Below are positions 1,542 through 25,960 of a DNA stretch of 64,000 nt, piece by piece (position 1 is the first letter of the stretch; each line of letters begins with the position of its first letter). The stretch spans positions 109,851 through 173,850 of the forward strand of contig NZ_JASMRZ010000002.1 of the NCBI RefSeq assembly GCF_030462475.1, written 5' to 3'. The stretch comes from Variovorax sp. CAN15 (GTDB taxonomy: Bacteria; Pseudomonadota; Gammaproteobacteria; Burkholderiales; Burkholderiaceae_C). The notes below the pieces were generated by a model. That model searched no databases and had not been told where the DNA came from. It saw nothing but the letters and a program-made list of their open reading frames with translations. The position numbers were made by a program, and so were the translations under genes.

Positions 1542-1587
1542 CGCGTGTCTCCTCGTTCGCCAGGCCCGCAGCTGGCCGTTTCGTGGT

Positions 1588-2394: not shown

Positions 2395-2402
2395 GGTGTC
2401 TC

Positions 2403-5643: not shown

Positions 5644-5647
5644 GGCA

Positions 5648-6439: not shown

Positions 6440-6495
6440 ATGCTTTTTCCTGCAGGCCGGCTGCCGCCGTTCAATCGATTCGGCCGGCGATCGGT

Positions 6496-7470: not shown

Positions 7471-7584
7471 GATCTGATGTCTCCAGAACCAAGTAATGAA
7501 CCCCAAGTAAGCGCGAACGTTCTTGGCTACGCCGCAGGTGGGTGCGAGAACTTTAGGAGGAAACAATCGATCTCGGGGATCTCA

Positions 7585-8808: not shown

Positions 8809-9822
8809 TCAATCCGGCCTGGCTTCTGTCCATTGGGCCCCATCGGTGGCGCCTTCTCCAAAACTGACGCTCGTTCGGCGCGGATTCTTGTTGACCATGA
8901 GGCGTACGACGTCGCCGCGAGCGTAGTGGCCCGATGGGTCGTAAGCCGCCTTGGCCACGGCAATTTTGGCGAGATCGATATCTGCGTAGAGCAGGCCCTC
9001 CTGGTCCTGAGGCATGTGTGCCACCAATGGCTGTCCATCCGGACCGAAGATCATCGAGTAGCCACCACCAGGCTTGGCTCCGTCGGCATTGAGCAGCTCC
9101 GCTCGCTCAGGCGTATCGCACAACACGTCGAACATGTCCTGTCCGGTGACCGCGCTCGCGTGGAGCACGTAGCAGCCCCCTTCAAGCGCGTAGATCTGAC
9201 TGGCGGAGAGGTTGACCTCATGGCCAAGCGCAAAGGCTTTGCCGCGGTACAGCGTGAACGACGGCCAGGACGCGACGTGCACTTGCTCGTGCATCGAGTA
9301 CATCGCGTACTTGGAGAGCGGTTGGACGTGCTCTGCGCAACACAGCGCCCCCAGCCGGCCGACGCTGCTGTCGGCGACCTGGAAATCCGATCCATCGCCC
9401 TCGCCGAACAAAGTGCGCTCGACGTGCGTGGGCTTCAGCTTTCGGCGCTTGAACACCATCTCGCCCTTGTCACTGATGAGCGCCTGGCTGAGGTACAGGG
9501 ATCCACCCTCGATCTCGGAAAAGCCGATCACGACATTGATGTCCGATTTCTTCGCTGCGGCCGCGATCGCCGCCAACTCGGGTCCGTCAGCTCGCAGGGA
9601 GTTTGCGTGGTATTTGGAGACGAACTGCATCCCCCATGCAGGCGTTCCGAGCCACAGCCACCACGGGTAGCCCGGAATGAAGACTTCGGGAAAGGCCACG
9701 AGCTTGGCGCCGTTCGCACCTGCTTCTGCAATGAGGCCGATGGCTTTTTCCGTTGTCGCCCTCGCGTCGAGAAAGACCGGGGAAGCCTGGACGACGGCGA
9801 CCTTGAATGCTGTTTCGGACAT
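8809..9822 (-). CDS. Nitrilase, arylacetonitrilase-like
   Basis: A 337-residue carbon-nitrogen hydrolase that would convert a nitrile to a carboxylic acid and ammonia. The triad is visible: Glu46 in [11 protein letters not shown], Lys128 in [12 protein letters not shown] and Cys162 in [17 protein letters not shown] and the length match true nitrilases rather than amidases. The residue after the catalytic cysteine is Ala163, where most nitrilases have Trp. From memory, the mandelonitrile- and phenylacetonitrile-converting enzyme of Pseudomonas fluorescens EBC191 also has Ala there, which would suggest an arylacetonitrilase. AGGA precedes the ATG. It is the last gene of the transporter operon, 47 bases after livM. 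With mandelate-pathway genes next door, mandelonitrile or its 4-hydroxy form is the favoured substrate (inference). Confidence 0.9.
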
Positions 9823-9869
9823 CTGGATTTCCTTGACCGTAAGTGAACTGAACTAAGGGAGAGACGGGG

Positions 9870-10871
9870 TCAGCGGCGAGGCATGTCGCGCCGCACGCCA
9901 AAAGGATCGATGGCCCATCGCCGGGTGACGAGGCTCCAGGCGCCACCGGGTGCGAACACCATGGTGGCGATGGCCAGGGAGCCGAGGCCGATGAAATACC
10001 ACGAGCCGTAGCTGGCGAAGGACTCGCGCAAGAGGAAGTAGAGGATCGTTCCCAGGATCGGGCCTTCCAGTGTCCCGATACCGCCCAGGACTGCAATGAA
10101 GATGGCCGCGGCGGACCAGTTCAACGAAAAGGTCGCGTCCGGCGTCACCTGCAGCGTATTCATGTAGGCCACGGCTCCCGCGAGCCCGGTGATGGATCCC
10201 GCGATGACCCACAGCGCAAGCTTGGCCCGCTGGATCGAAACGCCGGATGCGGCGGCGGCAGCCTCCGAATCCCTCACGCTCATCAGCGCCAGGCCCAGCC
10301 TGCCCCTGAGCATCATGCGAGCGATCACGAGTGCGCCAACGCCAGTGATCAGCGCCGACCAATAGACACCCGCGTTGCGCGTCCAACGATCAAAGCTCGC
10401 GAGTGCTTCGAGCGGCATGCCGCCCCCGGCTCCCAGCCATTCGCTGTTGAGCGTCAGGATTCGCAGCATCTCCGCAAGAACCCACGTTCCCACCGCAAAG
10501 TGGGCGCCGCCGAGCCGAAACATCGGCAGGGCGCTCAACAATGCAAAGAGGGCGGTCACCGCCACTGCCAGCGGCAGCATCATCCAGGGGTTGACTCCCA
10601 ACCCGTTGGACAGCGCGAAAAGAGCGTAGGCCCCCACACCGACGAACATCTGGTGCCCGACGACAACCAGTCCGCCGTAGCCTGCGAGCAGGTTCCAGGC
10701 CAGGGCCATCGCGAAGACGGTGAAGATTTCCACAAGGAGACGTTGCGTCGCGAAGCTCGTGAACCACGGCGCCAAAGCCAAGGCACCCACCACGGCGAGC
10801 AAGGCGACGCCAACTACCGCCCTCCCCGCTTTGCGGGGCCGCGCCCCGTCCATCAATACGACCGAGTTCAT
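9870..10871 (-). CDS. Branched-chain-type ABC transporter permease (LivM-like)
   Basis: A 333-residue inner-membrane permease with about ten hydrophobic segments. The LivM hallmarks are LLAGYGGLVVVGHQMFVGVGAYALF near residue 65, and SVRDSEAAAAASGVSIQRAKLALWVIAG (the EAA-like cytoplasmic loop, about 205-230). The C-terminus has a GGIGTLEGPILGTILYFLLRE segment. The ATG overlaps the end of the livH-like gene in an ATGA arrangement, so the two are translationally coupled. It probably forms the membrane channel with LivH for the nitrile-derived or related substrate. Confidence 0.9.
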   Translation of the reverse strand: MNSVVLMDGARPRKAGRAVVGVALLAVVGALALAPWFTSFATQRLLVEIFTVFAMALAWNLLAGYGGLVVVGHQMFVGVGAYALFALSNGLGVNPWMMLPLAVAVTALFALLSALPMFRLGGAHFAVGTWVLAEMLRILTLNSEWLGAGGGMPLEALASFDRWTRNAGVYWSALITGVGALVIARMMLRGRLGLALMSVRDSEAAAAASGVSIQRAKLALWVIAGSITGLAGAVAYMNTLQVTPDATFSLNWSAAAIFIAVLGGIGTLEGPILGTILYFLLRESFASYGSWYFIGLGSLAIATMVFAPGGAWSLVTRRWAIDPFGVRRDMPRR

Positions 10872-11734
10872 CGGGAACCCTTTCCAAAAAGCCCTTGTGG
10901 ACGGGCCAGCAGCGCGATCAAGAAGACCAGGTGCCCGAAGAAGGGACCGAGGCCCGACGACACCTTGGCACCAAGAAGCTGTGCCACGCCGATGATCAAG
11001 CCGCCGACGAACGTGCCCCAGACATTTCCGAGCCCCCCGAGCACGACGGCCTCGAACGAGTACAGCAGTCGCTCGGGCCCCGCCGTGGGGGAAAACGGCG
11101 TTCTGATGCCGTACATCACCGACGCCAGCGCGATCACGGCGAGGACAAAGCCGGTGACCAGCGCGAAGAAGTTGCGGTCATTGACGCCAACCAGGCGCGC
11201 GGTGCCGGGGTCGTCCGCGACGGCACGAGCCTGCCGCCCCAGATGCGAGTGACCTATCAACCAGCTGGTGCCCGCAAAGATGGCCACGCTGATCAATGTC
11301 GAGACCAGCGGCAGCAGCCCTATCGACACGCCGCCCAGATCGAATCCCCGCAAGGCGAACTCGCCGGCCTGAAGACTGCGCGTATCGGCCGTATAGACCT
11401 CCTGCAGGACGTTCTGCACGACGATCGAGAGGCCGAACGTCAGAAGCAGCGGCGAAAGCGCTCCCCTGCCGACAACGCGATTGAGCAAGATTCTCTGCAG
11501 CACATAGCCGATGACGAACATCATGGGAACCACGGCGAGCAACGAGAGAAACGGACCGACGCCCAGGACCTGCATCACGGTGCTGCACAAATAAGCGCCC
11601 AGGACGATCAGATCGCCGTGCGCGATGTTGATCATCTTCATGACGCCGAGGCTCAGGCTGAGGCCCAGTCCGAAAAGGGCATAGAGCGCACCGAGCATCA
11701 GCCCGCCTGCGATGGTCTCGAGAAAGGCTTGCAT
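10868..11734 (-). CDS. Branched-chain-type ABC transporter permease (LivH-like)
   Basis: A 288-residue integral membrane protein. It begins MQAFLETIAGGLMLGALYALFGLGLSL and continues with GVMKMINIAHGDLIVLGAYL, the classic LivH start. The cytoplasmic loop is seen at ARAVADDPGTARLVGVNDRNFF, and the C-terminal part contains GGLGNVWGTFVGGLIIGVAQ. The ATG at 11734 was chosen because it matches the family start; the frame continues upstream for 15 residues without family resemblance. It starts one base from the livF stop and overlaps livM at its end. Confidence 0.9.
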   Translation of the reverse strand: MQAFLETIAGGLMLGALYALFGLGLSLSLGVMKMINIAHGDLIVLGAYLCSTVMQVLGVGPFLSLLAVVPMMFVIGYVLQRILLNRVVGRGALSPLLLTFGLSIVVQNVLQEVYTADTRSLQAGEFALRGFDLGGVSIGLLPLVSTLISVAIFAGTSWLIGHSHLGRQARAVADDPGTARLVGVNDRNFFALVTGFVLAVIALASVMYGIRTPFSPTAGPERLLYSFEAVVLGGLGNVWGTFVGGLIIGVAQLLGAKVSSGLGPFFGHLVFLIALLARPQGLFGKGSR

Positions 11735-11735
11735 G

Positions 11736-12428
11736 TCAGATTCCAAAGTAGGCTTGGGCAACTTGCGCATGGTCCGCATGCTCGGACGCCCCTTCCAGCA
11801 CGACGCGCCCTTTCTGGATGCAATAGAAGCGATCGGATTCGGAAATCGCGCGCTTCACGTTCTGCTCCACCAGTACGACGGCCAGGCCATCGCCGCGGGC
11901 CCGCCCCAGGAGTTCGTAAACCTCGTTGACGGCAACCGGAGAAAGACCCAGCGAGATCTCGTCGCACAGCAGATAACTGGGGTTGCAGACCAGCGCGCGC
12001 GAGAGCGCCACGAGTTGCTGCTGACCGCCCGACAGGGCTGTCGCCGGGCGATGCTGAAATGCTTCCATCACCGGAAATTCCTTCATCAAACGCTCGATGG
12101 TCCATGGCCCCTTGCGTCCATTGCGCATTGCCAACTGAAGGTTTTCACGAACCGTCAGGCTGGGAAACAACCGCCGGCCTTCCGGCACCAGTGCGATGCC
12201 GCGATCGAGCTGCTTGCGCTCCGGTTCGCCGCCCACGGGCCGGCCGTCGAGCAGAACCCCGTCGGGACGTGCGCGGACCGAACCGACGATCGAACGAAGC
12301 AACGTCGATTTGCCCGCGCCGTTCGATCCAATCAAGGCCACGGTTTCCCCCGGCTTGACCTCGAATGTGAGACCGAACAATGCCTGGAACAGGCCGTAGT
12401 ACGCATCGAGTCGTTCAGTGCGCAGCAC
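11736..12428 (-). CDS. ABC transporter ATPase (LivF-like), GTG start
   Basis: A 230-residue ATPase subunit. Walker A is GSNGAGKS, the signature motif is LSGGQQQLVALSRAL, and Walker B lies in YLLCDEISLGLSPVAVNEVYELL. The H-loop appears in VVLVEQNVKRA. The short length and YYGLFQALFGLTFEVKPGE near the start mark it as LivF type. The GTG at 12428 was chosen because GAGGAGG lies seven bases upstream; ATG codons further up fall inside livG. It overlaps the end of livG by 14 bases, so translation is coupled. Confidence 0.9.
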   Translation of the reverse strand: MLRTERLDAYYGLFQALFGLTFEVKPGETVALIGSNGAGKSTLLRSIVGSVRARPDGVLLDGRPVGGEPERKQLDRGIALVPEGRRLFPSLTVRENLQLAMRNGRKGPWTIERLMKEFPVMEAFQHRPATALSGGQQQLVALSRALVCNPSYLLCDEISLGLSPVAVNEVYELLGRARGDGLAVVLVEQNVKRAISESDRFYCIQKGRVVLEGASEHADHAQVAQAYFGI

Positions 12429-13158
12429 AGTCGACCTCCTCGCCGATGTCGGAGCCCAGGTATGTGTCCCGCACAGTCTGGTCATCCATGACCGATCCGG
12501 GATCGCCATCACAGATGACAGCGCCGCTTGCAAGCACGACAAGGCGATCCGCTGCCGAAACCAGGGCGTGCACCAGATGCTCGATCCAGAGAACGGTGAC
12601 GCCGCTTTGATGAATGGTGACGATCAGCTGCAGCAGCTGCTGCATCTCGCCGTCGGTCAGCCCTCCGGCCACCTCGTCGAGCAGCAACAGGCGTGGCTGC
12701 GTGGCGATCGCACGCGCAAGCTCCAGGCGTTTTCTCTGAAGCAGCGTGAGCGTGCCTGCCAGCTTGTTCGCGACAGGAGCGAGGCCGCAGCGTTCGATCG
12801 CGTCTACCGCCAATTCCTGTGCGGCACTCCCGTTCCCGCTGCTGCCGAAGGTCGCGGCCACCAGCGCGTTTTCATAGGCCGTCATGCCTTCGAACGGCTG
12901 CGGGATCTGGAAGGTGCGCCCGATGCCGGCACGGCATCGCTGCGCTGCATCCAGCGTGGTGACGTCCATGCCATCGAGAAAGACGCTGCCGCTGTCACAG
13001 CGCGTGCTTCCGGAGATGAGCCCGAACATGGTGCTCTTGCCTGCGCCGTTGGGACCGATCACACCGATGAATTCGCCGTCCGCCACGGAAAGCGAGAGTT
13101 TCGGGATGATGACCATGTCGCCGTAGCGCTTGGTTGCGTCGCGCAGTTCGAGCAGCAT
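12415..13158 (-). CDS. ABC transporter ATPase (LivG-like)
   Basis: A 247-residue ATPase. Walker A is GPNGAGKST; the Q-loop area reads GIGRTFQIPQPFEGMTAYENALVA, typical of LivG; the signature motif is degenerate (LTLLQRKRLELARAIA), as is common in this subfamily; Walker B is RLLLLDEVAGGL with EMQQLLQLI following. The H-loop is in VLWIEHLVHAL. It lies nine bases after the substrate-binding protein gene and precedes livF. Confidence 0.9.
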   Translation of the reverse strand: MLLELRDATKRYGDMVIIPKLSLSVADGEFIGVIGPNGAGKSTMFGLISGSTRCDSGSVFLDGMDVTTLDAAQRCRAGIGRTFQIPQPFEGMTAYENALVAATFGSSGNGSAAQELAVDAIERCGLAPVANKLAGTLTLLQRKRLELARAIATQPRLLLLDEVAGGLTDGEMQQLLQLIVTIHQSGVTVLWIEHLVHALVSAADRLVVLASGAVICDGDPGSVMDDQTVRDTYLGSDIGEEVDCAAH

Positions 13159-13167
13159 GGCAGTTCC

Positions 13168-14463
13168 TCAGGCCAGCTTCAGGAGTTCGAACTTGCGCTG
13201 CACGGGAATCTCCGGCGCCGTCTTGTTGTTCGTGATGAAGAGCTCCGGCTTGCCCGCGGCGCTCACTCGCCATTGCCCCCCGACGACACGTATCTTGGAG
13301 ACGTTCTTGATACCGCTCGATGCGAAGTCGAGCCTGCCGATGATGGTGTCGTGTTTCATCACGCGCACGGCGTCGGCCACCTTGACAGGATTCTTGGGGT
13401 CGCCACTGGCCTTGAGCGCCTGGATTCCGGCTTCGAACAGCGCGTGAACGACTCCCAGGGGCTGAGTCCACTCGCGCTTCGTGGCGGTGGTGTAGGCGTC
13501 GGCAAACTGCTTGGCCGTCTGGCCGGTGAGGCTGGACTTGAACGGATAGGCAGGCGTCCACCAGATCTCGGTGGACATGCCGTCGGCACGCGCACCGAGC
13601 GCCGCGACACCGCCGGGGAAAAGCAGGGCCTTGGCGACCGTCGCGACCTTCGGCTTGAAGTTCATCTGCGCGGACTGCTTGACGAACGAAGCCCATTCGG
13701 GCGGATTGAACAGGCCGGTGACGATCTCGACGTTGTCCTTCTTGAACGCCTGGATGTAGGAAGAAAAATCGTCGGCGCCCACCGGAAAGCGGCCGATGTC
13801 CACGACCTTGTAGCCTGCCTTGGCAAAGGCGGCGGGCATGCCGAGCTTCGGGTCGCCCATGGCGTTGCCCGGCACGTCGTTGCTGAAGACCGATCCGACC
13901 GCCTTGTTCGACGGCACGCCGGACCAGATGTCGAGATACACGTCGGAGATGTCTTCAAGGCCCCAGAAGAAGTGGAAGACGCTCTTGAAGCCCTTGGCCG
14001 GATCGCCCTTGAGCGGGAACATCCATGCCTGCCACGGGCCGACCGTCGAGATGCAGGGCACGCCATTCAGCTCGCATTGCTGCGACGCGTTGGGACCGAT
14101 CGCCACCTGCGCCAGCATCAGGTCGATGTTCTCCTTGTTGATGAGCTCGGCCGCCAGGTTGGACTGCCGGTCGGGGCTGCTCTGGTCGTCGCGCGCCAGG
14201 ATCTCGACCTTGTATTTCTTGCCGCCGACGGTCAACCCGTCCGCAAGCGACTTGCGCACCTGGTCGAGGATGAAGTCGTCGGCTTCGGCGAACGGCGAGA
14301 AAGGACCCGTCTTCGGGCTGATGTAGCCGATCTTGATCGTGTCCTTGTCGGCTGCCCAAGCCGAACTGGCCTGGCCGAGGGCCGCTACCGCGCCCAGCGC
14401 CGCCGCGCCGCGAAGCAACTGGCGACGGTTGCCAAGGAGGCCGGAATAGCCGGCGTTCTGCAT
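13168..14463 (-). CDS. ABC transporter substrate-binding protein (type I periplasmic binding fold)
   Basis: A 431-residue secreted binding protein that leads the transporter-nitrilase operon. The N-terminus has a twin-arginine-like signal (GNRRQLLRGAAALGAV) with a likely cleavage near SSAWA. The mature part starts DTIKIGYISPKTGPFSPFAEADDF, the usual opening of Leu/Ile/Val- and amide-binding proteins, and continues with KYKVEILARDDQSSPDRQSNLAAELIN. At about 430 residues it is longer than LivK and resembles the urea/amide group. The ATG at 14463 has only a weak ribosome binding site; a TTG seven codons upstream with GGAG before it is a credible alternative. Confidence 0.88.
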   Translation of the reverse strand: MQNAGYSGLLGNRRQLLRGAAALGAVAALGQASSAWAADKDTIKIGYISPKTGPFSPFAEADDFILDQVRKSLADGLTVGGKKYKVEILARDDQSSPDRQSNLAAELINKENIDLMLAQVAIGPNASQQCELNGVPCISTVGPWQAWMFPLKGDPAKGFKSVFHFFWGLEDISDVYLDIWSGVPSNKAVGSVFSNDVPGNAMGDPKLGMPAAFAKAGYKVVDIGRFPVGADDFSSYIQAFKKDNVEIVTGLFNPPEWASFVKQSAQMNFKPKVATVAKALLFPGGVAALGARADGMSTEIWWTPAYPFKSSLTGQTAKQFADAYTTATKREWTQPLGVVHALFEAGIQALKASGDPKNPVKVADAVRVMKHDTIIGRLDFASSGIKNVSKIRVVGGQWRVSAAGKPELFITNNKTAPEIPVQRKFELLKLA

Positions 14464-14638
14464 GTGTGTCGATGTCTTCAAAGTGCGCTCCGTTGCGGTT
14501 ACAGCCCTCCGCGAAGGCCTGCCCAACTTTCCTTTTTTCGGGCACGCGCGACTTTGTTGGTTCGGCCAGAAAATTTGACTGGAACGGCCCTTCCCCGGGC
14601 TGCAGATGCGCGCCACCTGGGAGTGACTTAGGGTTTTC

Positions 14639-14654
14639 TTGGCATCAACCTTGC
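14639..14654 (+). promoter_or_regulatory. Candidate sigma-54 (-24/-12) promoter for the AraC gene
   Basis: TTGGCATCAACCTTGC matches the sigma-54 pattern TGGCAY-N5-TTGC with GG and GC exactly ten bases apart. It lies in the 287-base divergent region between the binding-protein gene (start 14463) and the AraC gene, and points toward the AraC gene. In GC-rich DNA such matches occur by chance, so this is moderate evidence. No enhancer-binding activator gene was seen in the window. Confidence 0.35.
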
Positions 14655-14750
14655 GTGATTTCGATCAGACTCCGGAGAACCGGATCAATGCACCGGGCCT
14701 GCGCTGCCCGGGCACCGAGCAAGTGCAACGCCAGCCCCAGGTGGGCCGCC

Positions 14751-15731
14751 ATGTCGACCTCAACTGCCACCCCGATCCTCGCTTCCACTGCCGGCCTCGA
14801 TGGACACGACAAGTTCGGCTATTGGCAGGACGTCGTGTGCCGTGCGTTGGTCGATCTCGAATGCAGGCCCATGGACGGAATGGCCTTCGAGGCGTCCGTC
14901 AGGGGATCGCGTCTCGAGGGCCTGAGCGTTGCCCAGATCGAAGCTTCCGCGCACCGCGTCGCCCGCCAGCCTTCGGCCATATCGCGTTCCGGCGAAGAGT
15001 CGCTGATTTTCAATTTCGTGCTCTCGGGGATAGCCATGGCGGAGCAGGACGGAAGAAGAGTCGTGCTGAGGGCAGGCGACGGAGCCGTCTGCGACGCACA
15101 GCGCCCTTATTCACTGAGATTCGACGACGCGTTCAAGCTCATCACGATCAAACTTGCGCGTTCGGCCATCGCACATCGGGCCGCGAGCATTCATCGCATC
15201 ACCGCGAGAAGCCTGGCGGAATCGAGCCAGATGTGCCCGATCCTCTTTGGGTACCTGGTCGGTTTCAGCAAGCAGGCCTCTCTTCTTGAGCCGGCCGCAT
15301 CGGAAAAAGTGGTCAGGAACTTCACCGAATTGCTGTCTGCAGCCATGGACGAGGTCATCCTGGCCTCGCCGCTGCCGCTCTCGGAATACCGGGCAACCGC
15401 ATTGATGCGCGTGAGGGACTTCGTGGAGCGCCATCTGGACGTGTGCGAACTTGGCACGTCCATGGTGAGCACCGCATTGAATTTGTCGCCGCGCTATATC
15501 AACAAGTTGTTCGAAGCCGAGAACACCTCCTTGACGCGGTACATCTGGCGCCGGCGGCTTGAACGCGCGGCGGCCGATCTGCAAGATCCGGCGCGCGCCA
15601 GCCTCGGTATCTCCGCGATCGCGATGGCGCACGGGTTCAACGATCTGAGCCACTTCAGCCGGGCATTCCGGCAACGGTTCGACCTGTCGCCCCGCGCTTA
15701 CCGCGCAAGCGGCACCGCCTCGACCGCCTGA
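14751..15731 (+). CDS. AraC-family regulator with AraC_binding_2-type sensor domain
   Basis: A 326-residue regulator. The N-terminal region (about 10-190) resembles the AraC_binding_2 sensor found in FeaR-like regulators of aromatic amine catabolism (FGYWQDVVCRALVDLEC, then EESLIFNFVLSGIA, DGAVCDAQRPYSLRFDD). Two C-terminal helix-turn-helix units (about 225-322) include LSPRYINKLFEAENTSLTRYIWRRRLERA and GFNDLSHFSRAFRQRFDLSPRAYR. The ATG at 14751 has AGGTGGG upstream; an in-frame ATG at 14688 with GGAG is an alternative. It is divergent from the transporter-nitrilase operon and ends four bases from the stop of mdlB, so it most likely controls one or both. Confidence 0.9.
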   Translation: MSTSTATPILASTAGLDGHDKFGYWQDVVCRALVDLECRPMDGMAFEASVRGSRLEGLSVAQIEASAHRVARQPSAISRSGEESLIFNFVLSGIAMAEQDGRRVVLRAGDGAVCDAQRPYSLRFDDAFKLITIKLARSAIAHRAASIHRITARSLAESSQMCPILFGYLVGFSKQASLLEPAASEKVVRNFTELLSAAMDEVILASPLPLSEYRATALMRVRDFVERHLDVCELGTSMVSTALNLSPRYINKLFEAENTSLTRYIWRRRLERAAADLQDPARASLGISAIAMAHGFNDLSHFSRAFRQRFDLSPRAYRASGTASTA

Positions 15732-15735
15732 GGTG

Positions 15736-16866
15736 TCACCGGCCGCCTGGGGAGCCAGGCAGATCGCGCACGTTTGTCGCGCCGAGCAGGGTCATGCTGC
15801 GGACAAGTTCGTCGGCCAGGATCCCCAGGACGGCTGCCGCGCCCTGCTGCCCGCCCACGGCCAAGCCGTAAAGCGTGGGTCGGCCCACGAACACAGCCGT
15901 TGCCCCCAGTGCCAAGGCCTTTGCGACGTCGCCACCACGCCGAATTCCGCCGTCCATGAACACGGGGATGCGTCCGCCAACTGCACTCACGACACGCGGC
16001 AGCGCCGAGATCGCCGAAGGCGACGCATCGTTCTGGCGACCACCATGGTTCGACACGATCAGGCCGTCGATGCCGTGGTCGACCGCCATGCGTGCGTCGT
16101 CCGCATGGAGCACGCCCTTGAGAAGGAGTGGCCCCTTCCACAATCCACGAAGCCACGCCAGGGATTCCCAGACGAGCGACCGGTCCATGGCGCGAGCCAG
16201 CAACGCGGCTTGCATGCTGGTCGAACCAGCGCCGCTTCCGGACGGCGTCAGATTGGCGAAGTCCGGCGCGCCGCGCGGGGCCATCCGAAGCGACCACCCG
16301 GGGTGGCTCAACAGATCCCAGGCCAGGCGGGGTGTTGGCCGAAACGGCATGCGGAATCCGTTGCGCATGTCGAGTTCGCGGTTGCCGCTGACGGGAACGT
16401 CCACGGTCAGCACCAACGCCTGGTAATCATCCTTTTGGGCACGCTCGACGATCTGGCTCGCCATCTCGCGGTGCATGACGTAGAGCTGCATCCACAGCAT
16501 GCCGCCCGGGACGGCTGCGCGTACATCCTCCAGTCGCATGTTGGAGGCTGTCGACAGTGAAAAAGGAATCCCTGCACCGGCGGCCGCGCTCGCCAGCAGG
16601 CGGTCTCCCTCCGGCCGAACCAGGCTGTTGAGCCCGGTAGGCGCAATGCCGACAGGCAATGCCCATTTCCGGCCGAAGACCTCGACGGACGTGTCGATCT
16701 GCGTGGTGTCTCGCAGCACGCGCGGCGTGAGTTCGATCGACGACAGATCGCCCGCGTTTCGCCGCATGCAATGTCCGTCGTCGGCGGAGCCTTCGACGTA
16801 GTCATAGACGAATCGCGGCAGCACCGAGCAGGCTCTGCGCCGATAGTCTTCGATGTTCAACAACAT
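15736..16866 (-). CDS. mdlB: FMN-dependent (S)-mandelate dehydrogenase-like enzyme
   Basis: A 376-residue FMN alpha-hydroxy-acid dehydrogenase that oxidises a 2-hydroxy acid to a 2-keto acid. The catalytic histidine is His274 in IVSNHGGRQNDASPSA; the FMN phosphate site is DGGIRRGGDVAKALALGA. Segments PTGLN, LSTASNM and QLYVMHREMASQ match (S)-mandelate dehydrogenase MdlB as remembered, rather than lactate dehydrogenase LldD, which has LSTVS and QLYVLRDR. It is the last gene of the minus-strand operon that begins with benzoylformate decarboxylase, so the product benzoylformate (or its 4-hydroxy form) would be used by that enzyme. A membrane-anchoring insert may lie around residues 175-215, where the sequence is unusually long. 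L-lactate dehydrogenase activity is the main alternative. Confidence 0.85.
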   Translation of the reverse strand: MLLNIEDYRRRACSVLPRFVYDYVEGSADDGHCMRRNAGDLSSIELTPRVLRDTTQIDTSVEVFGRKWALPVGIAPTGLNSLVRPEGDRLLASAAAGAGIPFSLSTASNMRLEDVRAAVPGGMLWMQLYVMHREMASQIVERAQKDDYQALVLTVDVPVSGNRELDMRNGFRMPFRPTPRLAWDLLSHPGWSLRMAPRGAPDFANLTPSGSGAGSTSMQAALLARAMDRSLVWESLAWLRGLWKGPLLLKGVLHADDARMAVDHGIDGLIVSNHGGRQNDASPSAISALPRVVSAVGGRIPVFMDGGIRRGGDVAKALALGATAVFVGRPTLYGLAVGGQQGAAAVLGILADELVRSMTLLGATNVRDLPGSPGGR

Positions 16867-16914
16867 GCGCGTTACCCGAGGAGCCGGTGAACGTGTCTTG
16901 TATCGATCGCGGCG

Positions 16915-17838
16915 TCAGGCAATGGCGCGCATTTCCGCGAGGCGCACGAGCGACAACAATGTCTCCGTGACAGGCAGTTTGATGCTCAGGGGACCGGCCG
17001 CCGCCACGACCGCGCCATTGATGCTCTCGACCTCGGTGCGGCGGCCTGCCAGGATGTCTTGCAGCATGGATGGCTTGTGCCCGATGTGTTGCGCGATTGC
17101 GCTCGCCACATTGGCCCAGCATTTGGCAGGGTCCACGTCTATGCCCATGCGCAATGCGACGGACAGCACTTCCGTGACGACGTCGTTTGCAAGGCGACTG
17201 CCGTCGCGCACTTTGCCGAGTTCATCGACCGTGCAACCGGATACGGCGCAGATGCTGTTCAGTGCAGCGTTGAACGCGACCTTCTCCCAGATTGCCGCCC
17301 ACACGGTGCCGTCCGAGGAGCAATCGAGCCCGGCCCTCGTGAGCACTTCGGACACCTGGGCAATGAAGGGGCGATCGATTCCGTCGGCCGCCATCAGCCG
17401 CACGACGCCCTTGCCGTGCGAGTGCACGTGGCCCGCGCCGACCATGTCCGCCGGCCATGTGGTGACACCGATCAGGATGCGCTCCGGCGATGCGAACTCG
17501 GCGATCTTCTCGACATTGCCCAAGCCGTTTTGCAGCGACAGCACATGCACGCCCGGTCCGATCAGATGCCGCACCCCGGACAGGGCCGCACTTGTGTGCA
17601 GCGTCTTGGTGAACACCAGCAGCAGATCGGGAAGATCGGCGGCCTCTTCCGGCCTTAGAGCCTTGAGTGCCGTGACCTGGCGATCACCACTGTCGGTGGC
17701 CAGGCGAAGCCCCTTTGCGCGGATGGCTCCGATGTGCGCGTCGTTCACGTCTATCAGCGTGACTTCATTGCCTGATTCGGCGAGCAAGCCACCGAACAGG
17801 GAACCCATGGCGCCTGCGCCAACTATCGAAATTTTCAT
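16915..17838 (-). CDS. Ketopantoate reductase-family (ApbA/PanE) dehydrogenase
   Basis: A 307-residue NAD(P)-dependent dehydrogenase. The nucleotide-binding motif is VGAGAMGSLFGGLLAESG at the N-terminus. Family catalytic residues are in WEKVAFNAALNSI (Lys and Asn, about residue 185) and RRTEVESINGAVV (Glu, about 270). The ATG at 17838 is preceded by AGGT. Annotated alone it would be 2-dehydropantoate 2-reductase, but it lies inside a mandelate operon between mdlB and the aromatic symporter. D-mandelate dehydrogenases of Enterococcus belong to this family, so oxidation of (R)-mandelate is a good alternative (inference). Confidence 0.85.
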   Translation of the reverse strand: MKISIVGAGAMGSLFGGLLAESGNEVTLIDVNDAHIGAIRAKGLRLATDSGDRQVTALKALRPEEAADLPDLLLVFTKTLHTSAALSGVRHLIGPGVHVLSLQNGLGNVEKIAEFASPERILIGVTTWPADMVGAGHVHSHGKGVVRLMAADGIDRPFIAQVSEVLTRAGLDCSSDGTVWAAIWEKVAFNAALNSICAVSGCTVDELGKVRDGSRLANDVVTEVLSVALRMGIDVDPAKCWANVASAIAQHIGHKPSMLQDILAGRRTEVESINGAVVAAAGPLSIKLPVTETLLSLVRLAEMRAIA

Positions 17839-17938
17839 GATGACTTTACCTGTGAAATTTTTGGCAGCCGGTCGTTCCGGCAAGAGCGGGCATACAGCGT
17901 CTGCATGCGCGGATTACTTCGGGATGCCCTCGTGCGCT

Positions 17939-19342
17939 TCATACAGGGCGATCGGGAGCGCTGCCTTGCCGTTGAGCCGCGCGGCCCTGATGCAGGATCA
18001 CTTCGCGCCCGGGAATGTGCCGGCGAACGACGAGCAGCGCGACCATGGCGAAGAACATCGCCGAGCCCAGCAACGCCAGATACGCCATGGCTCCGCCCGC
18101 CGTGATCACCGCAGCTCCCGCGAAGGCGCTCAGGATGGCGCCCAGGCGCCCGAACGCCAATGCGGATGCAGTTCCCGTCGCTCTCACGCTGGTGGGGTAC
18201 ATGAATGCGCACAGCGCGTACATGGTGGACTGCACGGCGTTCACGAACATGCCGTGCACGCCGAATCCGAAGATGAGCAGGCCTGTATCCTTTCCGACGT
18301 TCAGGGTCTGCAAGGCGAACGCGCTTGCAGCGGCACCGGCGCAGCACAGGACCAGCGGCCAGCGAGATCCAAAGCGCGTGATTGCCACCGCGCAGGCCAG
18401 CGCGCCGATCACGCCTCCCAGGTTGTATGCCGTAAGTCCCGAGCCGGCGACCGCCATCGAAAGCCCTTCCGATGCCAGCATCGTCGGCAGCCAGCTGAAG
18501 GCGGTGTACACGGCCGTCAGGCACATGAAGAACGCAGCCCAGGTTGCGAGCGTGTCGCGGGCCAGGCCGTTCGAAAAGAGAGCGCCGAAGCCAGCCCGCT
18601 TTTCGACGACTTGTTCAGCGGCGTCGGTGTAGGTAACGTCCTGAGCCATGGGGCGCCCCATGCGTCCAAGCAGTCTGCTCAGTTCACCCCATCGGGCCGG
18701 ATGGCGGGCAAGGAACCGCGGCGACTCCGGCAACGTGAAGAGCAGGAGCACCGCCAAGGCCATCGGGAAGGCGCCGCCGATGGCGAACAATCCACGCCAT
18801 CCAAAGGCCGGCAGCACTTCCGCGGCGAAGAGTCCTGCCAGCATGCCGCCGAGGGGGACGCAGACAATCGTCGCCGTCACGGCGAGCGTCCTGCGGCGGG
18901 CAGGCGTGAACTCGGCGGTGACCGTGGTCGAACTCGGCAGCGCGCCGCCAATACCGAGGCCGGCGAAGAATCGAAGCACAGCGACGGTCAACACGTCAGG
19001 CGCAAAACCGATCGCGCAGGTAGCGGCGCCGAACAGGAAAACGCTTGCGATGACAGCCATCCGCCGGCCGAAACGGTCGGCAAACAGCCCCGCACAAGCG
19101 CTTCCGATGCCCATGCCGATCAGGCCCGCCGCCACTGCCGGAACGAAGGCTCCGCGCGTAATTCCCCACTCCTTGATCATCGATGGAATCGCGAACCCGA
19201 TGAGCTGCCCATCGAATCCATCCATCACGATCGAGAGTGCTGCCAGGAAAACCACGACCTTCTGCATGGTTGTGTAGGCGCCGTCGTCCAGCAGCCGGCC
19301 GATGTCTGCATTGCCTTTGAAGGGAACAGTGGCGGCGTTCAT
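17939..19342 (-). CDS. AAHS-type MFS transporter (aromatic acid/H+ symporter)
   Basis: A 467-residue inner-membrane transporter with about twelve membrane segments. The AAHS signature DGFDGQLIGFAIPSM lies in the first helix, and the loop 2-3 motif GLFADRFGRRMA follows. Close relatives (PcaK, BenK, VanK) import benzoate, 4-hydroxybenzoate, protocatechuate or vanillate. Its position beside pobA and mdlC fits uptake of mandelate or hydroxybenzoate. The start codon overlaps the stop of a 19-codon open frame in an ATGA arrangement (see the next entry). A much longer upstream extension of the frame is not membrane-protein-like. Confidence 0.9.
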   Translation of the reverse strand: MNAATVPFKGNADIGRLLDDGAYTTMQKVVVFLAALSIVMDGFDGQLIGFAIPSMIKEWGITRGAFVPAVAAGLIGMGIGSACAGLFADRFGRRMAVIASVFLFGAATCAIGFAPDVLTVAVLRFFAGLGIGGALPSSTTVTAEFTPARRRTLAVTATIVCVPLGGMLAGLFAAEVLPAFGWRGLFAIGGAFPMALAVLLLFTLPESPRFLARHPARWGELSRLLGRMGRPMAQDVTYTDAAEQVVEKRAGFGALFSNGLARDTLATWAAFFMCLTAVYTAFSWLPTMLASEGLSMAVAGSGLTAYNLGGVIGALACAVAITRFGSRWPLVLCCAGAAASAFALQTLNVGKDTGLLIFGFGVHGMFVNAVQSTMYALCAFMYPTSVRATGTASALAFGRLGAILSAFAGAAVITAGGAMAYLALLGSAMFFAMVALLVVRRHIPGREVILHQGRAAQRQGSAPDRPV

Positions 19343-19398
19343 GGGCGCCCCTGCAAGTTGGACGGCTCGTCGAGCGCCAACGACAACTGATGGTTCAT
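19339..19398 (-). CDS. Possible 19-residue leader/coupling peptide before the AAHS transporter
   Basis: An ATG at 19398 with GGAGAC seven bases upstream opens a 19-codon frame (MNHQLSLALDEPSNLQGRP). Its TGA overlaps the transporter ATG (ATGA). The same GGAGACAAG leader precedes the Bug receptor and aldehyde dehydrogenase genes nearby, while the transporter ATG itself has only a modest site. The simplest reading is translational coupling by a mini-gene; a remnant of an older start is the alternative. No protein family is recognised. Confidence 0.35.
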   Translation of the reverse strand: MNHQLSLALDEPSNLQGRP

Positions 19399-19495
19399 GT
19401 CTTGTCTCCAGATGGGACGCTCGGCATTGCCTGGCGCTCAGGGTGTGCAGTGCCAACGATTGGCTGCCGCCTCTTGATGGGCGGTCGTGTATGAA

Positions 19496-21675
<2,180 letters not shown>

Positions 21676-21803
21676 TTCTTGTCTCCGGTTTGAATAGTCG
21701 GATGCAGCGGCTTCGGCCGCCGCATGCCTCGGCTGGTTCACTTCGGCGCATAGCCGAAAGTGACATGGCGTCCGACAAGGACGCCCGCGCACTTGTGCGT
21801 TTC

Positions 21804-23252
21804 CTAGAAGGGGTACTGGCGCGGCGTGGTCTGCACGGTCAGCCAACGCAGTTCGGTGAAGGCTTCCACACCGGCCTTTCCGCCGAAGCGGCCGATACCG
21901 CTGCCCTTGACGCCCCCGAACGGCATCTGTGCTTCGTCGTGGACCGTGGGACCATTCACATGGCAGATACCTGACTCGATGCGCCCCGCCACCTGAATGG
22001 CTCGCGCCACATCCCGCCCGAATACGGCGGCCGCAAGGCCGTACTCGTTGTCGTTGGCGCAAGCAACGGCAGCTTCGACACCTCTGACGCGAACGATGCC
22101 TTTCACGGGGCCAAAAGCCTCCTCCCGGAAGATGCGCATTTCCGACGTGACGTGATCGAGCAGCGTCGCGGGCATCAGCGTGTCCTTGGCCTTGCCGCCG
22201 GTGACGAGCCTGGCTCCCTTGGAAAGCGCGTCGTCGATCAACTCGTTGCAGCGGTTGACCGTACCCATGTCCACCACTGAACCAAGCACTACGGGCCCCA
22301 GTCGTGGGTCGCCCAGCGGAAGGCTCGCGGCCCTTGCGCCGAGCTTGGCGACGAATTCATCGGCAATGCTCTCGTCGACGACGACGCGTTCGGTCGACAT
22401 GCAAATCTGTCCCGAATTGGCAAATGCACCGAACACCGCTGCGTTGACGGCGGCATCGACGTCGGCATCGTCCAGGATGACCAGGGGGGCTTTGCCGCCG
22501 AGTTCGAGCACGACGGGCTTGAGGTACTTGGCACAGGTGGCGGCGATAAGCTTGCCGACGTGGGTCGAGCCCGTGAAATTGACGCGTCGAACTGCAGGGT
22601 GCGCCACCATCGCTTCGACGACCGCGGCAGCGTCGGCGGGCGCGTTGGTCACGAAGTTCACCACGCCCTTGGGGAAGCCGGCCTCTTGCAGCGCCTCGAC
22701 GATCAGCCCATGCGTGGCCGGGCAGATTTCGCTGCCCTTGAGTACGACGGTATTGCCGCAAGCCAGAGGCGTCGCGATGGCACGCACGGCCAGGATCACG
22801 GGCGCGTTCCAGGGAGCAATGCCAAGAACGACGCCTGCCGGCTGCCGCACGGCCATCGCCAGATTGCCCGGTACATCCGAGGGAATGACCTCGCCGCTGA
22901 TCTGGGTAGTGAGCGACGCCGCCTCCAGCAGCATGCCTGCTGCCAGGTGGACGTTGAAGCCTGCCCAGATTGCCGATGCGCCCGTCTCGGCCGCGACGGC
23001 GGCGGCGAAGGCCTCTGCCTTGGCTTCCAGCGCATGCGAAGCCTTCATGAGCAGCGCGCGGCGTTCGCCGGGCCCGGTGGTCGACCAGGTCTTGAAGGCC
23101 TCGGCCGCGGCATCCACCGCCGCGACGGCGTCTTCTGTCGTGGCCGCGGGTGCGGTCGTTGCCACGCTGCCGTCCAGAGGGTTGCGCCGCTCAAAGCTCG
23201 CGCCGTTGCGAGCGTTCGTGGGCTCGCCATTGATCAACATCGAAATCTTCAT
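21804..23252 (-). CDS. Aromatic aldehyde (benzaldehyde-like) dehydrogenase
   Basis: A 482-residue NAD(P)-dependent aldehyde dehydrogenase. The NAD-binding loop is NFTGSTHVGK, the general-base glutamate is in VLELGGKAP (about 252) and the catalytic cysteine in FANSGQICMSTERVVV (about 286). The ICMSTERV form is characteristic of the salicylaldehyde, vanillin and benzaldehyde dehydrogenase group. GGAGAC precedes the ATG. It follows mdlC by 66 bases, so oxidation of benzaldehyde or 4-hydroxybenzaldehyde to the benzoate is the expected role. Confidence 0.92.
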   Translation of the reverse strand: MKISMLINGEPTNARNGASFERRNPLDGSVATTAPAATTEDAVAAVDAAAEAFKTWSTTGPGERRALLMKASHALEAKAEAFAAAVAAETGASAIWAGFNVHLAAGMLLEAASLTTQISGEVIPSDVPGNLAMAVRQPAGVVLGIAPWNAPVILAVRAIATPLACGNTVVLKGSEICPATHGLIVEALQEAGFPKGVVNFVTNAPADAAAVVEAMVAHPAVRRVNFTGSTHVGKLIAATCAKYLKPVVLELGGKAPLVILDDADVDAAVNAAVFGAFANSGQICMSTERVVVDESIADEFVAKLGARAASLPLGDPRLGPVVLGSVVDMGTVNRCNELIDDALSKGARLVTGGKAKDTLMPATLLDHVTSEMRIFREEAFGPVKGIVRVRGVEAAVACANDNEYGLAAAVFGRDVARAIQVAGRIESGICHVNGPTVHDEAQMPFGGVKGSGIGRFGGKAGVEAFTELRWLTVQTTPRQYPF

Positions 23253-23318
23253 CGGCTTGTCTCCGTATGGTGGTTTGAAAGAATGCGTCGTCCGTCGGGA
23301 CGAAAATGATCGGCAAGG

Positions 23319-24941
23319 TCAGGCGACCCGGACCTCCACGACGCTCGGCGTGTCGCTGGACAAGCCCTGGTCGAGCGCCTTGCGCAAATCGGCGGGATCG
23401 GTCACGCGCAGTGCCGTGCATCCCATCCCTTTGGCCAGCGACTGGAAGTCGAGGTCGGGCAGTTCGGTGCCCTGCACGACATCGGCGGGCGAAAACCCGA
23501 ATACCGGTGCGAAATCCTGGAGTGCGGCGTAACGGCGGTTGTTCAAGATCACGAAGGTGATCGGCAGCTTGTTCTGGGCCGCGCTCCAGAGCGCCTGGAT
23601 GGAGTACATGCTGGACCCGTCACCGATCAGGCAGATGACCCGGCTTCGCGGTTTGCCCAAGGCAATGCCCACGGACGCGGGCATGCCGTAGCCGAGGCCG
23701 CCACTGTCCATCGTGTAGAAGGTTTCGCTGCGTGTGAAGGGCAGATGGGCCTGCATCACGGGCCTTGCGCTCGGCGCCTCTTCGACCACGATGTCTTCCG
23801 GCCTTTTTGCTTCGGCGAGCGTCTGGAGCACGTAGGCCACGGACATCAACGGCGTCGGCTCCGCGCGCGGCGCGGCCTTTCTCGCGGGGGGAAGCGGGCG
23901 GGTCTTCTTCGGCGGCAGGGCCAGCAGATCGAGCACTCCCAACCGGATGCTGCCGACTGCCGAGACGCCGACAGGCGCCCAGGCCGCCGTATCGGGATCC
24001 TCGGTCAACTGGCAGAGGGCCGCGCCCGCAGGCACATGAGGCCCCGCGCCTTCGACGTGATAGGCGAATGCCGGCGCGCCAATGGCCAGGATGAGATCGT
24101 GGCCCTCGAGCAGTTCGACGATGCGCTCGCGCATTGCCGGAAGGAAACCGGCGAACAAGCGGTGGTCTTCCGGAAAGCTGCAGCGTCCGGACATCGGAGC
24201 GACCCACACGCGCGCGTTGTGAGCCTCAGCCAGTGCCACGACTTCGTTCCACGCGTTGTCCCGGTCGGCTGCGGCGCCCACCACGAAGGCCGGACGCTCG
24301 CTTGCTTCCAACGCAGCCGAGATCCGGGCAATGAGCTCGGGCTGCGCTCGCGTTCGAGTGCTCACGACTCGGGTCGGAACCAACTCGGCTTGTTGGTCCC
24401 AGTCGTCGACAGGCACCGAAACCAGGACCGGACCGCAAGGCGGCATCATGGCCAGGTAGTAGGCCCGGGCAATCGCAAGAGGCACGTCTTGAGCACGGGC
24501 AGGCTCGATGCTCCATTTGACGTAGGGCTTCGGCAGTTCGGTCGCCTGGGCCGAAGACAGGAACGGGTCAAAGGGAAGAATCGAACGCGCCTGCTGCCCG
24601 GCCGTGATCACCATGGGGGTGCGGTTCTTGTAGGCGGTGAAGATGTTGCCCATGGCGTTGCCCACGCCGGCAGCCGAATGGAGATTCACGAACGAAGCGT
24701 TCCGGGTCGCCTGCGCGTAGCCGTCCGCCATGCCGACCACGCAGGCTTCCTGCAGACCGAGGATGTAGCGGAAATCGCTCGGGAAGTCGCGGAACATGGG
24801 AAGCTCCGTCGACCCTGGATTCGCGAACACGGAGGTCATTCCGAAGCGGCGCATCAAGTCGAACACGGCCTCGCGGACGGTCGTGGTGTTTGCGGGCTGC
24901 GTGGCCGTTGCGGCGATGGCGTGCGGTACGGGTGCGGTCAT
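23319..24941 (-). CDS. mdlC: Benzoylformate decarboxylase
   Basis: A 540-residue thiamine-diphosphate enzyme that converts benzoylformate to benzaldehyde and carbon dioxide. All catalytic residues remembered for Pseudomonas putida MdlC are present with a constant offset of 18: Ser44 (NPGSTELP), Glu65 (LQEACVVG), His88 (NLHSAAG), and the fourth, His281, corresponds to AYHVEGAG near 299. The C-terminal cofactor site is GDGSSMYSIQALWSAAQ followed by NN. The ATG at 24941 has AGGA upstream; the open frame further up is not enzyme-like. It leads the minus-strand operon and is divergent from the LysR gene at 25058. The FRDFPSDFRYILGLQEACVV segment is nearly the same as in MdlC. Confidence 0.95.
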   Translation of the reverse strand: MTAPVPHAIAATATQPANTTTVREAVFDLMRRFGMTSVFANPGSTELPMFRDFPSDFRYILGLQEACVVGMADGYAQATRNASFVNLHSAAGVGNAMGNIFTAYKNRTPMVITAGQQARSILPFDPFLSSAQATELPKPYVKWSIEPARAQDVPLAIARAYYLAMMPPCGPVLVSVPVDDWDQQAELVPTRVVSTRTRAQPELIARISAALEASERPAFVVGAAADRDNAWNEVVALAEAHNARVWVAPMSGRCSFPEDHRLFAGFLPAMRERIVELLEGHDLILAIGAPAFAYHVEGAGPHVPAGAALCQLTEDPDTAAWAPVGVSAVGSIRLGVLDLLALPPKKTRPLPPARKAAPRAEPTPLMSVAYVLQTLAEAKRPEDIVVEEAPSARPVMQAHLPFTRSETFYTMDSGGLGYGMPASVGIALGKPRSRVICLIGDGSSMYSIQALWSAAQNKLPITFVILNNRRYAALQDFAPVFGFSPADVVQGTELPDLDFQSLAKGMGCTALRVTDPADLRKALDQGLSSDTPSVVEVRVA

Positions 24942-24993
24942 TTCGTGCTTTCCTGCTGTGCACCGCGAACTCGCAATGCTGTCTCGATGGCTG

Positions 24994-25013
24994 GAGTGTG
25001 AAACCGCACACTC
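24994..25013. promoter_or_regulatory. Palindromic candidate LysR operator
   Basis: Perfect 7-bp arms GAGTGTG and CACACTC flank a 6-base spacer. The site lies in the 116-base region between mdlC (start 24941) and the lysR gene (start 25058). LysR regulators typically bind such interrupted palindromes between themselves and the operon they control. Function is inferred. Confidence 0.5.
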
Positions 25014-25057
25014 ATCTTGAAAATTGCCTTTTCGAGAAAAAGTCATTACCGTTGTGC

Positions 25058-25960
25058 ATGACTTTCGATCTGCAACATCTCGTCGCCTTCAACGCCATCG
25101 TTTCGTCGGGCAGCCTTGGGCGAGCGGCCGATGCGCTGAACATCACCCAACCTGCGCTGAGTCGCACGATCCGCAGATTGGAAGAGCAGGCTGGGGCAGC
25201 GCTGTTCGAGCGCCATTCGAAGGGAATGCAGCTCACCGATGTGGGCCTCGCGCTGCAGCCGCATGCACTGCTGCTGCAACGTGAATCGGAGCACGCAAGC
25301 GAGAACATCAAGGCCATGCTCGGGCTGGCGAAGGGCACGATCCGCGTCGGCGCGGTTGGGAGCATCGCTTGCCTTGTGCTTCCTTTGGCCATTGGCCGAA
25401 CTTGCAAGAAATGGCCGAACCTTCAGGTCCAGATCATCGAAGGCGTATGGGATCGGCTGGCGGATGCGCTCGTCTCGCACGAGATCGACCTGGCGCTCGG
25501 GGTCGACACCGAGGACACGGCCGAGATCGTTGCCGTCAAGGACTGCCGATGGGAAGACACCAGCTACGTCGTGGCCGGCCGTCATCACCCCCTGCGCAAG
25601 AAACCGAAGCTGAAGCTGTCGGACACTCTGGCCGAGCGCTGGGCGATCCTTCCAAAGGGAACCGGACCGTTCGAGCACATGAAGAGCGTATTTGCGCGGC
25701 GGAACCTTGCTCTGCCCAACGTGGTCGTCGAGACCCGCTCGGTCACGGCGCTCAAGAGCCTGATCGGTCACTCGGGTTTTCTTGGGTGGATGCCCGCGCC
25801 GATGTACGACGCGGAAAGAAAGGCCGGATTGATCGATGCCCTCGACATCCCCGGGGCGAGCGACAGGAGGACCTTGACCGCCTTCCGGAGAAGGGCAGGC
25901 ATGCTGCCAGGCCCTTCGACCAAGCTTCTCGAGGAGCTTCGTGCGCTGACAGCAGCGTGA
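25058..25960 (+). CDS. LysR-family transcriptional regulator
   Basis: A 300-residue LysR protein. The N-terminal helix-turn-helix reads LQHLVAFNAIVSSGSLGRAADALNITQPALSRTIRRLEEQAGAALFERHSKG. The effector domain follows from about residue 90 with KGTIRVGAVGSIACLVLPLA. The ATG at 25058 gives the standard N-terminus; upstream frame belongs to the divergent promoter. It is transcribed away from mdlC and most likely activates the seven-gene operon 24941-15736 in response to a pathway acid. Confidence 0.9.
   Translation: MTFDLQHLVAFNAIVSSGSLGRAADALNITQPALSRTIRRLEEQAGAALFERHSKGMQLTDVGLALQPHALLLQRESEHASENIKAMLGLAKGTIRVGAVGSIACLVLPLAIGRTCKKWPNLQVQIIEGVWDRLADALVSHEIDLALGVDTEDTAEIVAVKDCRWEDTSYVVAGRHHPLRKKPKLKLSDTLAERWAILPKGTGPFEHMKSVFARRNLALPNVVVETRSVTALKSLIGHSGFLGWMPAPMYDAERKAGLIDALDIPGASDRRTLTAFRRRAGMLPGPSTKLLEELRALTAA

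Follow-up and report, generated by a model that had tools for sequence, protein, structure and literature searches.

A 64,000-nucleotide stretch of the Variovorax sp. CAN15 genome (contig NZ_JASMRZ010000002.1, positions 109,851 to 173,850; hereafter the window) carries, at positions 8809–25960, what is probably a two-module catabolic island for aromatic hydroxynitriles, the substrate of which would most likely be 4-hydroxylated in the clade of islands that hold pobA, the gene for 4-hydroxybenzoate 3-monooxygenase. The genome is a 6.9 Mb draft in 193 contigs (G000 in our samples). The island is filled by two minus-strand operons and two divergent regulator genes, a layout that a first-pass annotation of the same DNA had proposed and that Pfam and NCBIfam assignments bear out; every gene named in it is present. 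Operon A faces an AraC-family regulator and is made up of genes for a periplasmic substrate-binding protein (PBP), the ATP-binding cassette (ABC) proteins LivG, LivF, LivH and LivM, and a nitrilase, in that order, with overlaps or gaps of less than 50 bases between them. Operon B faces a LysR-family regulator and is composed, in order, of genes for a benzoylformate decarboxylase (BFD), an aldehyde dehydrogenase (ALDH), a Bug receptor, PobA, an AAHS-like carrier of the major facilitator superfamily (MFS), an ApbA/PanE-family (KPR) dehydrogenase and a flavin mononucleotide (FMN)-dependent dehydrogenase. Each operon is presumably co-transcribed and inducible.

The two modules would act in sequence. 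Module 1, composed of the AraC regulator and operon A, would take up the nitrile or the acid and convert the cyanohydrin into an α-hydroxyacid and ammonia. Module 2, composed of the LysR regulator and operon B, would oxidise both enantiomers of the hydroxyacid, with the KPR enzyme acting on the R form and the FMN enzyme on the S form. BFD would then convert the ketoacid to an aldehyde and ALDH the aldehyde to an aromatic acid, after which PobA would turn 4-hydroxybenzoate into protocatechuate, to be ring-opened by a dioxygenase encoded at contig C172. 4-Hydroxymandelonitrile in water breaks down to 4-hydroxybenzaldehyde and cyanide; the aldehyde released in this way could also be caught by ALDH and PobA, so that the enzymatic and spontaneous branches would meet in operon B. 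The most likely native substrate, as judged from gene content, is 4-hydroxymandelonitrile (the aglycone of dhurrin or taxiphyllin) or 4-hydroxymandelate.

Linkage of the modules was followed in two samples. The first, termed the genus sample, is a grouping of 101 genomes whose members matched to named loci are Variovorax and one Xenophilus; 26 of its 30 BFD matches, the window included, were read as regions. In the second, a family sample of 349 genomes, 23 of 47 matches were read, including the window, G108 and G205. The loci to be read were chosen mostly by identity, so all counts of pobA are lower bounds. An orthologous nitrilase (at least 86% identity, the next relative being at 61%) is found in 8 of the 101 genus genomes, and BFD, at E 1e-120, in 27. 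In all eight nitrilase-bearing genomes, CAN15 among them, the nitrilase and BFD genes lie 10.9–14.6 kb apart on one contig, and co-location by chance is rejected on this ground. A search for the same gene order, proposed in the first-pass annotation, found the full order, pobA and nitrilase included, in five other genomes (L009, L010, L011, L078 and L079); V. boronicumulans is among the species with the island. Of the family genomes, 29 contain nitrilase relatives and 45 contain BFD; the two coincide in 10, where 3.7 would be expected (P = 0.0015).

The association extends beyond the orthologous nitrilases. A Ramlibacter locus (L015) contains an island with the nitrilase linked to BFD, without matches to pobA and KPR, and BFD is also linked to less closely related nitrilases in L053 and L098. 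In L053, from a more distant genus, the nitrilase–ABC genes adjoin a KPR–ALDH–BFD group in another arrangement. ABC genes accompany the nitrilase even at 53–54% identity (L051, L053 and L054) and are absent beside most other nitrilase relatives among the loci read. Across 51 distinct BFD loci (four duplicates removed, the window not counted, and L077 left out as its BFD is cut by the contig end), pobA is present in 11, one of them split, the nitrilase in 10, KPR in 15 and the FMN enzyme in 19. Many of the 51, mostly L060–L099, show only BFD, or BFD and ALDH, at the thresholds used. Some relatives hold the nitrilase and no intact pobA, others pobA and no nitrilase, which marks the operons as two separable modules, pobA belonging to operon B and the nitrilase–ABC genes forming the other. 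The nitrile-to-protocatechuate route of the first-pass annotation is supported by the family assignments, the conserved linkage and the dioxygenase genes at C172.

Two further loci carry related genes in other settings. G377 (C72:290608–297293) contains a different pair, a nitrilase (58%) and a BFD-like enzyme (44%) about 4 kb apart. On a plasmid of Variovorax boronicumulans EBFNA2 (L099, 9941–19104), a BFD–ALDH core (68% and 79%) is followed by genes for an FAD oxidoreductase, an intradiol dioxygenase and a maleylacetate reductase, the same core thus standing with a different ring-opening route.

The nitrilase (8809–9822, minus strand; PF00795, 187 bits) is arylacetonitrilase-like and would convert (4-hydroxy)mandelonitrile to (4-hydroxy)mandelate and NH3. 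Its best solved relative is NitA (6zby), which we take to be the nitrilase of Pseudomonas fluorescens EBC191; 181 of 306 aligned residues (59%) are identical. The CN-hydrolase family is marked by a Glu-Lys-Cys triad, and E48, K130 and C164 (6zby numbering) are kept in the island enzyme, as are Cys163, Cys164, Ala165, Trp188 and Asn206. In the 350-residue 6zby chain, Cys163, Ala165, Trp188 and Asn206 stand at the positions that excerpts of PMC6930498 give for EBC191 variants. According to the same excerpts, the EBC191 enzyme prefers to form (R)-mandelic acid, though with low selectivity, so that dehydrogenases for both enantiomers would find a substrate. The island protein is a CN-hydrolase close to a characterised mandelonitrile hydrolase, and its own activity on mandelonitrile is putative.

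Nitrilase relatives at 53–61% identity are common in the genus, and CAN15 itself encodes two more nitrilases. One, an arylacetonitrilase-like gene at C159:11260–12180 (L050, 8280–11518), is 55% identical to the island nitrilase and lies between an upstream AraC match and, directly downstream, a haem-containing dehydratase (PF13816, presumably the aldoxime dehydratase family), a gene set that looks like a known aldoxime–nitrile cluster. The other, at C106:98596–99414 (L027, 4592–9430), lies 10 kb before the window, is 35% identical to the island nitrilase and is surrounded by radical SAM, AIR-synthase-related and glycosyltransferase genes; this set resembles a known cluster, which we take to be the one named Nit1C.

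The island pobA (19496–20686, minus strand) passes the TIGR02360 cut-off of 538.7 narrowly, at 544.5 and 546 bits. It is a second copy: a housekeeping pobA at C150 scores 675 bits and is 54% identical to it, so the idea that the island gene is the sole copy in the genome, and hence uninformative, is rejected. Among the matches listed from the family sample, no other copy comes closer than 57% identity, and plasmid copies reach 65% among the best 60 of 263 records. An intact island pobA adjoins BFD in at least 9 of the 101 genus genomes (CAN15, G436, G437, G367, G412, G360, G362, G445 and G449), three of which (G445, G449 and G362) lack the orthologous nitrilase; a split copy stands beside BFD in G374, and in G443 (L012) the nitrilase is present with no pobA in the cluster. 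The two overlapping pieces of pobA in L013 (5134–6308) may reflect sequencing error or decay. In a tree of 34 PobA rows, the island copies form one clade (support 100/100) and a Burkholderia–Caballeronia pair another (100/99), with which L119, L122 and L123, showing no BFD match in the 17 kb read, are grouped (99/95). This topology implies either two separate entries of pobA into BFD operons or intervening loss. In L077, the pobA located about 5 kb from BFD falls on the housekeeping side of the tree.

The remaining enzymes of operon B are consistent with a mandelate-type route. BFD, of the mdlC type (frame 23319–25046, likely start near 24944, minus strand), reaches 853.8 bits in NF005485 against a cut-off of 493, and its best solved relatives are benzoylformate decarboxylases. 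In what we take to be the numbering of the Pseudomonas putida enzyme, the active-site positions are Ser26, His70, His281, Ala460, Leu461 and Phe464; S79, H123, H330 and A508 of the island enzyme match the P. putida positions by motif, and A508 is followed by L and, three residues further on, by F, in an alignment whose template chain is mutant at some positions. ALDH (21804–23252, minus strand; PF00171) is of the vanillin/salicylaldehyde dehydrogenase type, with vanillin dehydrogenase 9ihb (636 bits) and salicylaldehyde dehydrogenase 6qhn (630 bits) as best solved relatives. Two adjacent intradiol dioxygenase genes at C172, elsewhere in the genome, are read as pcaGH from their family and adjacency.

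Both candidate mandelate dehydrogenases of the first-pass annotation are recovered. The FMN enzyme (15736–16866, minus strand; PF01070, 438 bits), the candidate (S)-mandelate dehydrogenase, gives its highest-scoring unbroken alignment against (S)-mandelate dehydrogenase 6bfg (320 bits), followed by hydroxyacid oxidase 1 (267 bits) and 4-hydroxymandelate oxidase (229 bits). Tandem L-lactate oxidase chains score higher, at 347–369 bits summed over four pieces, so the MdlB label is likely and not settled; in NCBIfam the top-scoring row is a subfamily of L-lactate dehydrogenases, below its cut-off (322.6 bits against 376). Assignment as a 4-hydroxymandelate oxidase is rejected by the scores of 229 against 320 bits. 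The closest named relatives of the gene, 91–92% identical, are from Variovorax. The KPR enzyme (16915–17883, likely start near 17838, minus strand; PF02558, 130 bits, and PF08546, 108 bits) is the candidate D-(R)-mandelate dehydrogenase. Its closest solved chains are deposited as 2-dehydropantoate 2-reductase, so the D-mandelate role is suggested rather than read from them, with help from KPR relatives that adjoin BFD in 15 of the 51 loci, 4 of these without the FMN enzyme. A title cited in excerpts of PMC4580590 joins D-mandelate dehydrogenases and ketopantoate reductases in one family. The carrier (frame 17939–19456, likely start near 19345, minus strand) would transport an aromatic acid; it scores 297.7 bits in TIGR00895, below the cut-off of 418.55, and 260.8 bits in the PcaK equivalog NF053517, against 770.

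Similar clusters are found on plasmids of other genera. In the plasmid collection, 30 records with BFD and 32 with a nitrilase were found at the thresholds used, two of which are common to both sets. One is the Rhizobium rhizogenes K84 plasmid, where a nitrilase and a 44% BFD lie about 30 kb apart, with no mandelate gene annotated in the 19 kb around the nitrilase. The other is plasmid NZ_CP126319.1 of Burkholderia anthina SO82, typed as conjugative, from a strain whose source is the rhizosphere and root exudates of Sorghum bicolor. Its cluster runs LysR, mdlC, ALDH, hypothetical, MFS, pobA, FMN enzyme, AraC-type regulator and nitrilase, followed by MFS, an amidase (iaaH, PF01425), a binding protein, a permease and two ATPases; an IS6 transposase lies beside the LysR gene, and further out is a second FMN enzyme. 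Compared with the window, identity is 72% for BFD, 76% for ALDH, 70% for MFS, 62% for pobA, 47% for the FMN enzyme and 54% for the nitrilase, with no match to the island binding protein or KPR at the settings used. For the SO82 FMN enzyme, the nearest relative is (S)-mandelate dehydrogenase (475 bits). The cluster thus shares with the island the same gene kinds in one block, an ABC system with a branched-chain-type permease included, and differs in its order and in the added amidase. On plasmid pNK82 of Caballeronia sp. NK8 (NZ_AP024326.1), LysR, BFD, ALDH, KPR, MFS, pobA and the FMN enzyme form one block; the 19 kb read there contain no match to a nitrilase or ABC gene.

The sorghum glucoside dhurrin has (S)-p-hydroxymandelonitrile as its aglycone (excerpts of PMC11359004), and taxiphyllin has the (R) form (excerpts of PMC12350405). 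The sorghum-rhizosphere source of SO82, a single strain, therefore fits a diet of 4-hydroxymandelonitrile. We suggest tentatively, with somewhat less than even confidence, that horizontally moving islands for dhurrin-type aglycones were assembled on two or more occasions among Betaproteobacteria associated with plants, with the same kinds of parts placed in different orders: once in Variovorax and once on the conjugative sorghum-root Burkholderia plasmid. The parts in view are a BFD–ALDH core, an AAHS-like carrier, a second pobA, a mandelate dehydrogenase and an arylacetonitrilase.

A number of observations weigh against a hydroxynitrile island. The first concern linkage: only 3 of the 10 family genomes with both genes (CAN15, G108 and G205) have the nitrilase near BFD, the other seven having them on different contigs or far apart, and in G266 a nitrilase–ABC module lies at a contig end with no BFD match in the genome. 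Such cases bear on an account in which module 2 is a 4-hydroxymandelate/4-hydroxybenzoylformate operon fed otherwise, the nitrilase–ABC module serves other arylacetonitriles, such as phenylacetonitrile or indole-3-acetonitrile, and their proximity is partly incidental. The modules do occur apart, as pobA with BFD and without the nitrilase (L025/L080, L081, L082 and L118), or as nitrilase–ABC genes with BFD on another contig (L051 and L054) or nowhere in the genome (L028), and both nitriles are substrates of the EBC191 enzyme according to excerpts of PMC8955678. The linkage of the orthologous nitrilase to BFD in all eight genus genomes and in Ramlibacter, and of the more distant nitrilases in L053 and L098, nevertheless makes this account improbable. 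L025 and L080 are the same locus, from Variovorax beijingensis; its island breaks off 165 residues into the FMN dehydrogenase, and the locus has no match to AraC, ABC or nitrilase.

A second set of observations concerns the hydroxyl group. Clusters with the nitrilase and BFD and without an intact pobA are found in L012, L013 (split pobA), L015 and the more distant L053, and boxB is present in CAN15 and in all 12 genomes searched. The island could then be an ordinary one for mandelonitrile or mandelate, in which a non-hydroxylated substrate would be degraded through benzoate and the benzoyl-CoA (box) route and pobA would be a passenger for 4-hydroxybenzoate from elsewhere. With boxB in the genome and islands such as L012, L013 and L015 lacking an intact pobA, a plain mandelonitrile diet is conceivable, and the published precedents concern mandelonitrile. 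A passenger pobA would, however, be redundant because of the housekeeping copy at C150; the island gene is kept intact beside BFD in the nine or more genus genomes listed above, and BFD-linked pobA recurs on the Burkholderia and Caballeronia plasmids. We consider this explanation rather unlikely. The BFD pocket gives no help to a hydroxylated substrate, as no listed position separates pobA-linked from unlinked enzymes among 56 rows (13 pobA loci, the split one included, and 43 without; the window and some duplicate loci are counted). The 4-hydroxylated substrate of the first-pass annotation draws support from the divergent second pobA and its plasmid counterparts, and has boxB, the islands without an intact pobA, the pobA–BFD clusters without a nitrilase and the pocket comparison on the other side.

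The individual proteins and the setting add further counterpoints to a hydroxynitrile island. The closest nitrilase equivalog, TIGR04048 (Nit6803 nitrilase), gives 221.6 bits against a cut-off of 502.6; the FMN enzyme is no nearer to 4-hydroxymandelate oxidase than to mandelate dehydrogenase; and, among the rows listed, none of the FMN enzyme, MFS and ALDH scores above an NCBIfam cut-off. The scanned island proteins contain no glucosidase domain. Dhurrin is made mainly in sorghum leaves (excerpts of PMC11359004), and no paper naming B. anthina SO82 was found among the open-access papers searched.

The classical mandelate pathway is mdlABCD of Pseudomonas putida, which the island resembles in its MdlC-like decarboxylase and MdlB-like dehydrogenase, and from which it differs in having no racemase domain among the scanned proteins, a vanillin/salicylaldehyde-type ALDH and protocatechuate as the expected end product. 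The joining of a nitrilase to mandelate genes is already in print, and the core route is known from other bacteria. In EBC191, a nitrilase lies near mandelate-pathway genes and is thought to allow use of plant mandelonitrile, with a putative indoleacetamide hydrolase gene upstream of it (excerpts of PMC8955678). This is like the island in pairing an arylacetonitrilase, with residues that the island enzyme keeps, with mandelate-pathway genes, and like SO82 in the indoleacetamide hydrolase gene, iaaH following the nitrilase in SO82; the account of the cluster in those excerpts names no pobA, unlike the island. The Bradyrhizobium japonicum USDA110 nitrilase is likewise flanked by mandelonitrile-pathway genes, through which it was found and assigned to that pathway, and is highly active on mandelonitrile (Zhu et al. 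2007, via excerpts of PMC3599355). What is added here is the island's own pobA and the KPR dehydrogenase, and the pobA step points to a hydroxylated, sorghum-type compound. A dedicated pobA, the Variovorax spread and the sorghum plasmid parallel were not found described in the open-access literature, and excerpts of PMC12350405 and PMC11359004 describe no soil bacterium growing on dhurrin or 4-hydroxymandelonitrile.

The island has a GC content of 63.8%, against 66.7–69.4% in the rest of the window, and its 15 genes have a GC content at third codon positions of 0.78, against 0.88 in 18 hand-chosen flanking genes (Mann–Whitney P = 1.3e-5). Within the few kilobases compared, the flanks beyond the island show hardly any match to related loci; the sole near-flank match is 118 bases just past the nitrilase in L010, the others being to distant parts of the window or to the islands of the loci. 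The lower GC values and the unmatched flanks fit horizontal acquisition. No integrase or insertion sequence was found among the window proteins scanned by Pfam, a subset of the whole. Ahead of the island, positions 561–7566 contain genes for three TctC/Bug receptors, an acyl-CoA ligase-type protein and an enoyl-CoA hydratase.

The remaining island genes are transport and regulatory ones, and several real starts lie inside the longest frames. On the minus strand are the LivM-type (9870–10871) and LivH-type (10868–11779) permeases (both PF02653), the LivF-type ATPase (frame 11736–12542, start probably near 12431; PF00005 from residue 57), the LivG-type ATPase (12415–13158; PF00005), the PBP (frame 13168–14616, likely start near 14466; PF13458) and the Bug/TctC receptor (frame 20698–22062, gene about 20698–21690; PF03401, 213.7 bits, domain residues 177–449). 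On the plus strand are the AraC-family regulator (frame 14466–15731, real start downstream; PF14525 from residue 120, and PF12833) and the LysR-family regulator, divergent from BFD (frame 24890–25960, likely start near 25058; PF00126/PF03466). Between LysR and BFD, related loci match most of the stretch 24851–25120, which includes the coding ends, at 71–96% identity, and a search for LysR sites (T-N11-A, 4/5 complementary arm bases) gave a single weak site at 25029. A 49-base, 78% match to this intergenic stretch lies between pobA and KPR in L082 (14696–14744) and is perhaps a copied operator.

If the island is for hydroxynitriles as proposed, it would serve as a genetic marker of 4-hydroxymandelonitrile-consuming bacteria in the rhizosphere, and one could then test whether sorghum and other cyanogenic crops select for them. 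It would also offer two differently assembled enzyme sets in which the use of hydroxylated and plain mandelonitrile could be compared. Islands of this kind, if indeed assembled twice, would let their hosts draw carbon and ammonia from a cyanide-based plant defence.

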